Part shown: piece after piece, positions 38,178 to 41,159 of the stretch
Position numbering within the stretch: the first letter of the stretch is position 1
How the letters are laid out: every line of letters begins with the position of its first letter
Assembly (NCBI RefSeq): GCF_000379625.1
Contig: NZ_KB903218.1
Span: 186,001 to 250,000, forward strand
Source: Actinomycetospora chiangmaiensis DSM 45062
Lineage (GTDB): Bacteria; Actinomycetota; Actinomycetes; Mycobacteriales; Pseudonocardiaceae
Length of the DNA: 64,000 nt
Reading direction: 5' to 3'
Program-made: the position numbers and the translations under genes
The notes under the pieces: generated by a model
What the model was told of the DNA's origin: nothing
What the model saw: the letters and a program-made list of their open reading frames with translations, nothing else
Databases searched by the model: none

Positions 38178-40697
38178 TCAGCGGGGGTGGACCGGTTCCG
38201 CGTCGGGCCGGCGGTGGGCGGAGCGGCCCTCGGGGGCGCCGCTGACCAGGTCGGCCACCGTGCGCCGACGCGGGGAGGCTCCGTCGTGACGGGAGGGTCC
38301 CGACGTCGGGTGCGCCCGGCTCGCGGGGGTCGGTCCCGACGCCGGGTCGCGCGGCCCGGGCACGGCGGGCGCGTGAGGGGGCGTGGGAACGGGCGGCGGT
38401 GTGGGGCGCGGGACGGGTCCGTTCGGCACGAACGGGTCGTCGGTGCCGATGGAGCGTGATGAACGGCCCGGTCGTCCGGGCGCCGCCGCAGGTCCGGGCG
38501 CCGGCGCGGTTCCGAGCGCCGGCGTGGGTGACGGCGTGGGTCCAGGTGACGGTGTGGCGACGGGTGAGGGCGCGCGTCCGCGTGAGGGCGCGGGTGCCGG
38601 CGTCGTCCGGCCCGGCCGTGGTCCCGACGCAGCCGGCGCGACGGTGCGCGATCCCCGGTCAGCGGGCGCGCGCCGTGACGCCGTGCCGCCACGGACGTGC
38701 AGGGGCGTCGGGCGGGTGGTGGCGGAGATCGCGGCGTCGGCGGCCGCGAGCGCGAGCAGGCGGAGCGGGTTGGTCACCACCGCGTCGACGAGGGCCGGTA
38801 CGGGCTGCGGGCGCCGCGGGGGCACCGGCCGGGCCGGGCGGGCGGGCGCGACCGGCACCGGCTCGACGTCGCGACGGTCGCCCTGCTGCGCGGCCCAGAG
38901 GTCGGCGTAGACCCCGGGCCGGGCGAGCAGGTCGGCGTGGCGGCCCTGCTGCACGATGCTGCCGGCGTCGAGGACGACGACGAGGTCGGCGTCGCGGGCG
39001 GGCGTGAGGTCGTGGCTGACGACGATCGTGGTGCGCCCGCCGGACAGGCGGCGCAGCGGGTCGAGGACGGCGCGAGCGGTGGGCGCGTCCAGACCGGTGG
39101 TGGGCTCGTCGAGGACCAGCACCGGGGAGGTGCGCAGCAGGGCACGGGCGATCGCGAGCCGCTGGCGCTGGCCGCCGGAGAGTACGGCGCCGTCCTCGCC
39201 GACGAGGGTGTCGAAGCCGTTCGGGAGCTCGCGGACGAAGTCGAGCGCCCCGGCGTCACGGGCTGCCGCCTCGATCTCGGCGTCGGTGGCGTCGGGGCGG
39301 GAGTACGCGATGTTCTCCCGCACCGTGAGGTCGAACAGCATGGGCTTCTGCGGGAGCAGCGTGACAGCGCCGCGGACGGCGGCGAGGGTCCGGTCCCGCA
39401 CGTCGACGCCGTCGAGCAGGATCGCGCCGGACTGCACGTCGACGAAGCGCAGCAGCAGGCGGGTGAGCGTCGACTTCCCGGCGCCGCTCGGGCCCGTGAC
39501 CAGCACGAACTGTCCGGGCCGCACGTCGAGCGACACGCCGCCGAGCCCGGCGGACTCGGTGCCCGGGTACACGTAGCGGACGTCGCGGAGCTCCACCCGG
39601 CCGGTGCGCACGGGGGAGCCGAGGGCGTCCGGGACGTCGATGACGTCGGGCTCGGCGTCGAGGATCTCGAGCAGCCGCTCGCAGGACGCCGACGCCGCCG
39701 TGATCGTGAGGTTGAGCGACCCGAGCTGGGAGAGCGGCGGGTAGAGGTAGCCGAGGTAGGCGGCGAAGCCGAACAGGCCGCCGACGGTCAGCTCGCCCGC
39801 CGCGATGAACGCCGCGCCCGCGATCAGCACCGCGAGCAGCGCGCCGCTCTGGATGATCGTCGAGATCGGCGCGTAGATCATCTGCAGCCGGCTCTCGCGG
39901 GCCCGAGCGCGCCACCAGACCTCGGCGTGGTGGTCGAGGCGGGCGCTCTCGACGCTCTCGGTGCCGTAGGACTGGACGATCGGGAGGTTCTGCAGCGACT
40001 GCTGGATGGACGTCCCGACCTCGCCCGCGGCGGCCCGTTCCACGCGCGCCGCCGTGCGCGTGAACCGCCCGGTGATGCGGCTGGTGAGCCACATGAGCGG
40101 GGCGAGCGCGACCACGATCAGGGCGAGCTGCCACTGCACGAGCACGGCCGCGGCGGCGTAGGCGATCGCGGTGCCGACCGCGATGAGCGTCGTGACGATC
40201 CCGGAGGAGGCGAGCGCCTCGACCCCGTCGATGTCGGTGGAGAGCCGCGAGATCAGGTCGCCGGTGGCGTGGCGGGAGAAGAAGGAGGGGCCGAGCCGCT
40301 GGAGGTGCTCGAACACGTCGTGGCGGAGCCGGAACACGAATCGTTCCGCGGCGCCGACCATGAGCCAGCCGCCGGTCACCGACAGCACGCCGCCCAGCGC
40401 GGTCAGCGCCATCCACTCGATCGCGGAGGGCCACACCGCGGCCATGGACCGCGCGACGGTGGCGCCGTCGACGATGCGGGCGAACATCGTCACCACGTAG
40501 GTGTCGCAGGCCGTCGAGGCGGCCATGAAGAAGAAGGCGAGGACGAGCTTGGTGCGGTCGCCGTGGGTGTGGCGCCCGAACCGCCGGACGATCGCCCGCA
40601 GGGTGAGCGGGGGAGCGGCGAGGTCCGGTCCGTCGTCCGCCACGCCGTCGCCCGTCACCCCGGAGTCCGCCGTCGTCGTCGGCGAGTGCGCGCCCAC
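38178..40697 (-). CDS. ABC exporter (fused membrane and ATPase domains) with long Pro-rich tail
   Basis: 839 residues. A six-helix type IV exporter membrane domain (about 50-330) is followed by a complete ATPase: Walker A GPSGAGKST (402-410), Q-loop LLPQKP, signature LSGGQRQR (507-514), Walker B VLVLDEP (526-532) and His562. A cytoplasmic tail of about 230 residues (from 611) is mostly Pro, Arg, Ser and Thr and ends SAHRRPDAEPVHPR. There is no C39 peptidase domain. The GTG at 40697 follows GGGAGGAG. The small Cys/His peptide gene lies 118 bases upstream on the same strand. Confidence 0.9.
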   Translation of the reverse strand: MGAHSPTTTADSGVTGDGVADDGPDLAAPPLTLRAIVRRFGRHTHGDRTKLVLAFFFMAASTACDTYVVTMFARIVDGATVARSMAAVWPSAIEWMALTALGGVLSVTGGWLMVGAAERFVFRLRHDVFEHLQRLGPSFFSRHATGDLISRLSTDIDGVEALASSGIVTTLIAVGTAIAYAAAAVLVQWQLALIVVALAPLMWLTSRITGRFTRTAARVERAAAGEVGTSIQQSLQNLPIVQSYGTESVESARLDHHAEVWWRARARESRLQMIYAPISTIIQSGALLAVLIAGAAFIAAGELTVGGLFGFAAYLGYLYPPLSQLGSLNLTITAASASCERLLEILDAEPDVIDVPDALGSPVRTGRVELRDVRYVYPGTESAGLGGVSLDVRPGQFVLVTGPSGAGKSTLTRLLLRFVDVQSGAILLDGVDVRDRTLAAVRGAVTLLPQKPMLFDLTVRENIAYSRPDATDAEIEAAARDAGALDFVRELPNGFDTLVGEDGAVLSGGQRQRLAIARALLRTSPVLVLDEPTTGLDAPTARAVLDPLRRLSGGRTTIVVSHDLTPARDADLVVVLDAGSIVQQGRHADLLARPGVYADLWAAQQGDRRDVEPVPVAPARPARPVPPRRPQPVPALVDAVVTNPLRLLALAAADAAISATTRPTPLHVRGGTASRRAPADRGSRTVAPAASGPRPGRTTPAPAPSRGRAPSPVATPSPGPTPSPTPALGTAPAPGPAAAPGRPGRSSRSIGTDDPFVPNGPVPRPTPPPVPTPPHAPAVPGPRDPASGPTPASRAHPTSGPSRHDGASPRRRTVADLVSGAPEGRSAHRRPDAEPVHPR

Positions 40698-40724: not shown

Positions 40725-40797
40725 CGGCCGGGGACCTCCCCCAGGAGGTCACCGGCCGGACCGTCGTCGTCACGCGGGCCCGTGGTCCGGGCCCGCG
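40725..40797. terminator. two hairpins between peptide gene and exporter (attenuator-like)
   Basis: First stem: arms 40725-40739 and 40744-40758, 14 of 15 pairs. Second: CGCGGGCCCG, TGGTC, CGGGCCCGCG at 40773-40797, a perfect 10-base stem. They fill the 118-base gap and could stop part of the transcription after the peptide, giving much peptide and little exporter. That use is inferred. Confidence 0.6.
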
Positions 40798-40815
40798 CCG
40801 CTCACACGGACTGCG

Positions 40816-40956
40816 TCAGTCGTCGCAGCAGTGCTTCGGCTTGCACTCGCGCTTCGGCTCACAGTGCTGCGGCTTGCACTCGTGGCAGTGGCAGTGCTTG
40901 TGGTGGTGGTGCTTGTGCTTTGGGGGAGCGCAGCCATCCAGCAGGGAGAAGCCCAC
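40816..40956 (-). CDS. 46-residue Cys/His-rich peptide
   Basis: Starts at GTG 40956 (MGFSLLDGCAPPKHKHHHHK) preceded by GAGAGGATCGATC, and ends KPKHCCDD. It has 8 Cys (9, 22, 24, 27, 32, 38, 43, 44), 10 His and 8 Lys in 46 residues, including HCHCHEC and two CKP-like steps. This suggests a metallothionein-like metal binder or a precursor/bacteriocin-like peptide. It is too short for usual gene calls. It precedes the ABC exporter, which may carry it or its metal. I do not recognise a named family. Confidence 0.75.
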   Translation of the reverse strand: MGFSLLDGCAPPKHKHHHHKHCHCHECKPQHCEPKRECKPKHCCDD

Positions 40957-41159
40957 GATCGATCCTCTCGGGGGAAGGAACCATCCCTCGCCGGTCGGCG
41001 AGGCCTGGTCACGATCGGGTCACGACTTAAGGATTTGCTGTGAGCCAGCTGTCACCCGATCGAGTGATGCGCACATGTCTGTGAATGCATCAATCCTCCG
41101 GTCAAGGGACCGGCCCCGAAACCAAAGACCCGTCAAGGGCGGACCTTCTCAGAATCCAC

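Follow-up and report, generated by a model that had tools for sequence, protein, structure and literature searches.

Organization of the peptide–exporter locus

The window analysed here, a stretch of 64,000 nucleotides from Actinomycetospora chiangmaiensis DSM 45062, carries on its minus strand a very small gene candidate followed by a gene for an ABC exporter (Table 1). Re-reading the sequence bore out what a first-pass annotation had described: a GTG-started frame, VGFSLLDGCAPPKHKHHHHKHCHCHECKPQHCEPKRECKPKHCCDD, with 8 Cys and 10 His among 46 residues (our own count), the bases GAGAGG ahead of its start, two hairpins behind it, and the GTG of the exporter gene 118 bases beyond its stop. By our own count the peptide has a net charge of +2, to which its 10 His residues are additional, and it contains no Trp.

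Table 1. Coordinates of features at the peptide–exporter locus and at related loci
Feature	Position	Strand	Description
ABC exporter, a single chain with membrane and ATPase domains	38178..40697	-	Pfam ABC_membrane and ABC_tran; 839 residues; GTG start
Second, terminator-like hairpin of the peptide–exporter spacer	40725..40758	-	14 inner pairs, one mismatch; MFE -30.3 in 44 bases, z -1.9
First hairpin of the peptide–exporter spacer	about 40772..40798	-	By eye; sequence varies among copies
Cys/His-rich peptide gene	40816..40956	-	46 residues; GTG start; reading frame VGFSLLDGCAPPKHKHHHHKHCHCHECKPQHCEPKRECKPKHCCDD
Shine-Dalgarno sequence of the peptide gene	40963..40969	-	GAGAGGA; 6 bases from its end to GTG
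Small leader hairpin	40987..41002	-	CTCGCC-GACC-GGCGAG; by eye; also in aligned copies
Direct repeat	41007..41025	-	TCGTGACC, two units 11 bases apart; in the window and in aligned copies
PhoP-like direct repeat	41037..41054	-	TGACAGC-N4-TCACAGC; conserved upstream of copies
Stand-alone peptide copy L049	L049:10001-10144		Contig C10 of the source genome; promoter of the window gene kept
Stand-alone peptide copy L050	L050:9998-10141		Genome G010; different promoter
Exporter ATPase relic	L083:9901-9990 (G007)		About 90 bases, directly after the MFS gene
Small frame upstream of the L063 exporter	L162:6691-6858 (G000:C27)		55 residues, MGDKWGGWSGHDKDSDHDWGKGWGWGGW...; hairpin behind

The richness of the frame in Cys and His exceeds chance, since its best 30 residues hold 16 of them and the maximum in 40 first-order Markov copies of the window was 9, the comparison being made over frames with at least four Cys and at least four His in 30 residues. 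A survey of 362,213 bases (2606 frames of at least 30 residues) yielded only seven frames with at least 11 Cys plus His and at least four of each, all of them copies of the window peptide family. A Pfam scan of the window peptide returned no family, and a plasmid search with it gave no match. Its sole NCBIfam match (E 0.56) and the one match of its profile to solved structures (E 0.5) were taken as chance. Across the whole window there was no Rfam match and no tRNA gene was found.

The exporter has the ABCB/MsbA-type architecture, and among solved sequences P-glycoprotein and MsbA come nearest to it. Its scores against the listed NCBIfam exporter models stay under their curated cut-offs; because its match to the MsbA model reached 429 of the 602 bits required, we do not file it as MsbA. 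As the first-pass annotation had stated, no C39 peptidase domain is listed on the exporter by Pfam, and no modification enzyme occurs among the neighbours scanned. These neighbours include no metal gene; the genes upstream of the pair are an MFS gene, a TetR regulator, a desaturase, a NIPSNAP protein and another TetR. After about residue 605 (38178-38882) the exporter runs on into a long low-complexity Pro/Arg/Ala tail, the length of which differs among orthologues, two exporter frames being near 1000 residues.

Conservation of the pair within Actinomycetospora

A search with the single peptide sequence found 8 copies in 6 of 61 genomes, and copies occur in 6 of the 18 Actinomycetospora genomes. 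The profile of these 8 copies recovered the same 8 and no other strong match in 390 genomes of the family (18 of the genus). Matches confined to E 4.6e-4 or weaker (12 of the 18 genomes that gave any match in the family search), and those at E 5e-4 to 1e-3 in 3 of 394 genomes besides the source genome itself in the class search, were attributed to chance.

Close exporter orthologues (80-92% over the first 332 residues) are present in the same 6 of the 18 genus genomes, and in each the exporter lies directly behind the peptide gene, with the Cys/His pattern conserved. A. soli SF1 carries the pair as well. Thus the proposal that the peptide gene is tied to the exporter holds in every genus genome with a close orthologue, and the alternative, that the gene lies near the exporter by chance, is disfavoured by this conservation. 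The Shine-Dalgarno region, CCCCCGAGAGGA, is invariant in all six aligned exporter-linked copies; the start codon is ATG in the five others and GTG in the window. Judged from its sequence, the frame has the appearance of a genuine gene that belongs with an export pump.

The remaining 12 genus genomes, three of which are <90% complete, lack the pair. One of them, G007, has the upstream genes without peptide and exporter, and because a relic of the exporter ATPase follows its MFS gene directly (Table 1), the pair was probably once present there and removed by one deletion. A single deletion of two neighbours carries little information on shared function. At the MFS locus of six more of the pair-less genomes there was no homologue of peptide or exporter. 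Two of the 8 genus copies stand alone, with no exporter beside them; one of these, L049, retains only 5 Cys and 4 His (our own count).

Selection on the reading frame

Among the 8 copies 13 residues are invariant, 8 of them Cys or His, and the Actinomycetospora copies share the core motif HHH-[KR]-x-C-x-C-H-[EQ]-C-K-P. Length changes among aligned copies preserve the reading frame. Across the four close orthologues, 5 first, 8 second and 12 third codon positions are variable. The first-pass annotation had held that equal synonymous and non-synonymous rates would speak against the frame. When the same changes were placed at random in 12 pairs of copies, non-synonymous changes proved too few (p <0.01) in six pairs and not in the other six, so that the expectation of unequal rates stood for one half and failed for the other; dN/dS ranged from 0.03 to 1.61 over all 28 pairs of copies. 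In these alignments, comparisons of close copies give good evidence of selection and those of distant copies give none.

A conserved regulatory stretch that is open by happenstance, and no gene at all, could explain why the promoter side is conserved as much as the frame and why half of the tested pairs lack an excess of synonymous change. We regard this as scarcely credible in view of the frame-preserving length changes, the invariant Shine-Dalgarno region, the six pairs with too few non-synonymous changes and a Cys/His content far above that of the Markov copies.

A wider group of exporters preceded by small peptide frames

In a quick tree of 59 exporters (midpoint root only, with several long branches meeting) the window exporter falls in a group of 44 rows (SH-aLRT 100) of MsbA/ABCB-like exporters from several actinomycete families. 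Relatives share 35-52% over the membrane domain, with E up to 1e-54 in the family and up to 1e-50 in the class. A tiny peptide frame lies upstream of 43 of the 44 group exporters, usually with a strong hairpin behind it; 41 of these were found by a composition-blind rule, and the GTG frame of the window and that of L097 were added by eye. No upstream peptide was seen at L129, which lies in the group on a long branch. The frames have their own Shine-Dalgarno sequences, as in MGFPIPVPGKRPHFPRPEQPAPGRPQQPRK, MSFHKIAPVKKTRKPAAPAPAPKKKPVAKTAAPKRRPVAHKG, MPLKKILPPPPKPKKHKKPLPPPLPKKPFHG and MAGTRFSKIGFQQGWGCRRRRRWRRCCYVPVRWWGCC.

The family peptides are low-complexity, mostly cationic sequences of 25-53 residues, and by composition they fall into Pro/Lys, Arg/Trp/Cys and Pro/His types, with the Cys/His type in the window branch. 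We listed 39 distinct relatives, chosen by eye and mostly of 25-43 residues. All 39 carry a net charge between +3 and +15, more than the window peptide, and 24 fit an N-terminal motif, M-x-F-x-[ILV]-x-P, that we formulated by eye on these very sequences. Tandem pairs of peptides occur at four loci. Scans of 10 relatives against NCBIfam and 11 against Pfam gave no match at cut-off. In the MSFHK, MGFPxPVPGK, RWC and MGSFK groups every pair had dN below dS, and in the PLKKIL group dN was about equal to dS or lower; in the MADT group it was not below dS in two of three pairs.

The composition-blind rule called for an ATG start, a length of 24-60 residues and a Shine-Dalgarno sequence; in its stricter form the frame also had to be followed by a hairpin with a folding energy of -28 kcal/mol or lower. 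The frame alone was present at 41 of 44 group loci and before 21 of 169 other genes, and frame plus hairpin at 38 of 44 and 3 of 169; a rule for cationic frames found one at 36 of 45 exporter loci and before 7 of 129 other genes. Because homologous loci are not independent, these contrasts are weaker than the counts suggest, and a Fisher value is no true probability. None of 12 exporters outside the group has such a frame by the composition-blind rule; as these come mostly from other phyla (mostly alphaproteobacteria and Deinococcus, with one Eleftheria and one Streptomyces), base composition and gene packing differ in these controls. Both rules required ATG and so excluded the GTG frame of the window, and the cationic rule missed L060, L063, L114, L116 and L118. 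L097, cut at a contig end and represented in the tree mostly by its ATPase, was scored as a miss in 36/45, 41/44 and 38/44; the end of its peptide frame, though not the start, is visible and resembles that of L114.

Next to the 44-row group in the tree lie L063, a second exporter of the source genome, and an exporter from Streptomyces nigrescens, the latter with an Arg-rich small frame upstream. The frame MGDKWGGWSGHDKDSDHDWGKGWGWGGW..., which is followed by the distant L063 exporter, is rich in Trp, Gly, Asp and His, contains an internal repeat and has no Pfam match.

Besides the exporter, no gene was common to more than 4 of 20 wide loci (crude gene calls), and the unit therefore looks like two genes placed in many contexts. 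The comparison suggests that these peptide-plus-pump gene pairs constitute an undescribed family. Searches of one open-access library, which covers part of the literature, gave no description of the peptides or of small frames paired with such exporters, and the Pfam and NCBIfam scans given above assigned them to no family; other papers may describe some of them.

Metal binding as a proposed explanation of the family

The first-pass annotation had read the locus as a peptide- or metal-handling exporter system. As a general reading metal handling finds no support, because the peptides at the corresponding place before homologous exporters match in size yet contain little Cys or His; by itself it cannot account for the family. 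The same peptides, nearly free of Cys and His, count against an intracellular metallothionein-like metal buffer whose gene adjoins that of the exporter because one and the same stress calls for both. Small size combined with abundant Cys and His is also found in bacterial metallothioneins and in His-rich metal peptides, and a buffer would account for the 8 Cys and 10 His of the window peptide, for the predominance of these residues among the invariant positions and for the existence of stand-alone copies. Yet no sequence relation to metallothioneins emerged from Pfam or from the chance-level NCBIfam match, no metal gene lies among the scanned neighbours, and stand-alone copy L049 keeps only its 5 Cys and 4 His. 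We judge a buffer of this kind improbable.

Hairpins between peptide and exporter

A terminator-like hairpin lies between peptide and exporter, as had been claimed for the window, and L051-L053 have a hairpin of different sequence at the same place as the second window hairpin. Spacer hairpins were stronger than those of shuffled sequences (z < -1.5) in 39 of 44 spacers, 42 of them before exporters and two behind stand-alone copies, with a median z of -3.8; the five that failed were L049, L054, L055, L108 and L116, the stretches tested for L108 and L116 being very short.

This layout resembles that of attenuator leader peptides, in which a small frame and a hairpin precede a regulated gene, always in cis. 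Ribosomes pause at residues such as those enriched here, and Cys-responsive leaders occur in mycobacteria. The peptide might therefore be a cis-acting leader, otherwise jobless, whose slow translation through a Pro-, Arg-, Lys- or Cys/His-rich frame holds the hairpin open so that transcription enters a drug exporter. This is the strongest rival to secretion, as a paused ribosome could hold a nearby hairpin open: in most loci the order is frame, hairpin, exporter; the hairpin starts a median of 10.5 bases past the stop (36 loci), within the reach of a paused ribosome; and Pro is among the last four residues of 19 of the 39 peptides. The leader reading is nonetheless unlikely, in our estimation. 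Two of the 8 genus copies have no exporter beside them, peptides occur in tandem at four loci, and the MSFHK group is conserved at both ends. Nor was there an excess of pairing between the frame and the 5' arm of the hairpin (median z -0.11; below -2 at 1 of 36 loci), and no alternative antiterminator pairing was seen in the 36 loci; direct blocking of the hairpin by a ribosome is compatible with these values.

Upstream region and possible regulation

The region 5' of the peptide start is well conserved in the alignment of the copies. Its leader hairpin has one mismatch in two of the aligned copies and reads CTCGTC-GCCC-GACGAG in the stand-alone copy L049. The PhoP-like repeat of the window differs at 1 of 14 positions from the M. 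tuberculosis PhoP motif, given as a TCACAGC repeat with a strict 4-base spacer (PMC4832192). A Streptomyces-type PhoP repeat had at least 3 mismatches in the window even at best and was rejected. A longer promoter pattern, derived from these same peptide copies, occurs with up to 3 mismatches at two places in the genome, the window gene and the stand-alone copy on contig C10.

Using a matrix built from sequences already seen, we found period-11 PhoP-like repeats enriched 5' of family peptides (p ~1e-5; 43 regions compared with 182 upstream of other genes); for two repeats in the same regions, spacings of 9 and 13 also gave low values (0.0016 and 0.0003). With the 25 regions that remained without near-copies, spacing 11 gave 0.0014 for two repeats and 0.0008 for three, spacings 9 and 13 gave 0.04 for two repeats, and nothing appeared at 8, 10, 12 or 14. 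The array is absent in several lineages. For PhoP-like control of the family promoters these sequence patterns are suggestive only.

A putative two-gene secretion cassette

We incline, by slightly more than even judgement, to a two-gene cassette in which the exporter would secrete an unmodified peptide that has no detachable leader and would work like a leaderless bacteriocin. The conserved promoter would give rise to a short mRNA with the peptide gene, perhaps under a PhoP/OmpR-type regulator; the layout suggests that the hairpin behind the stop would terminate most transcripts and that read-through would provide a lesser amount of exporter. The MsbA/ABCB-like exporter, presumably a homodimer, would then export the whole unmodified peptide. 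The exporter may recognise the first few residues, which often fit M-x-F-x-[ILV]-x-P, in which case the low-complexity remainder would be cargo. An exporter with its own unmodified cargo would fit the order of peptide, hairpin and exporter, the tandems, the copies that stand alone and the finding that the wide loci have no other widely common gene.

In charge and make-up most cargoes resemble antibacterial peptides, and the cationic Pro-, Lys- or Arg-rich sequence of most relatives would fit an envelope-active or antibacterial role. No immunity gene was seen. In Actinomycetospora the Cys/His core would probably bind Zn, Cu or Ni, and the peptide, when secreted, may be metal-dependent or metal-scavenging; this branch would be a Cys/His, probably metal-binding, version of the family. 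More tentatively, and with somewhat less than even confidence, we propose that actinomycetes possess an undescribed family of leaderless, low-complexity peptides that change fast and are each paired with a dedicated ABC exporter. Cargo chemistry (Pro/Lys, Arg/Trp, Trp/Gly, Cys/His) would change freely in this family while the layout stays constant, and the Cys/His members would be metal-dependent secreted peptides.

A small peptide with an exporter is also a common layout of RiPP systems, and the Cys residues could in principle be modified by tailoring enzymes encoded elsewhere in the genome. We consider a RiPP precursor very improbable, as no enzyme gene is common near the exporters in the 20 wide loci, the peptides have no leader with a conserved cleavage site, and no single enzyme would suit the range of cargo chemistry found across the lineages.

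Comparison of the proposed cassette with known systems

Leaderless bacteriocins of the aureocin A53/lacticin Q type are described, in the sections of the two sources drawn upon, as small, unmodified, cationic peptides without a leader, occurring in one- and two-peptide systems, some with ABC-type transport genes nearby, PH-domain proteins being named as well (PMC11580447, PMC6131525). Aureocin A53-like members are given as having about 51 residues, a helical fold and Trp (PMC11580447). The family resembles them in charge, all 39 listed relatives being at +3 or above, with the window peptide at only +2 plus its 10 His. As to a detachable leader and post-translational modification, the observations are that the window exporter has no peptidase domain and that the wide loci have no further widely common gene. 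Compared with what those sections give, however, the family peptides are mostly shorter and rich in Pro, Lys, Arg or Cys/His, and the exporter is the only common gene. Because the composition does not show the size, Trp content and helical fold of the aureocin A53-like peptides (the window peptide lacks Trp, and most relatives are of 25-43 residues), and because any antimicrobial activity of the cassette is putative, we do not file it as a leaderless bacteriocin.

Many relatives share a Pro/Arg/Lys composition with the proline-rich antimicrobial peptides of animals; the peptides described here are bacterial and have an exporter gene, and the likeness noted is one of composition. If the proposal is true, bacteria whose renown rests mostly on small-molecule antibiotics would gain a further class of gene-encoded peptides. 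Genes of this kind are easily missed because they are tiny and of low complexity and because those scanned match no family. The cassette would also offer a test case for the recognition of leaderless peptides by an exporter, since the exporter is conserved and its cargo ranges from Pro/Lys to Cys/His.

Observations at further exporter loci

At L128, whose exporter was placed with the outside exporters in the tree, a divergent small frame, MSHHHGRRHRRPKKKPFDVTPTPVTPVTP..., with TPV repeats by eye lies on the opposite strand upstream of the match, at about -315 to -130; it has one weak Pfam match, below cut-off. Genome G010 has a second exporter, 52% over the membrane domain and sister of the Cys/His group in the tree, with a Pro/Arg/Lys peptide, MAIPRPLPSRRPVQVRKPAKPARKTCQPQRPGR, upstream (L090:7840-7941, G010:C6). 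At L142:8290-10062 (G710) an in-frame TGA splits the exporter into two pieces, which may reflect a broken gene or a sequencing error.
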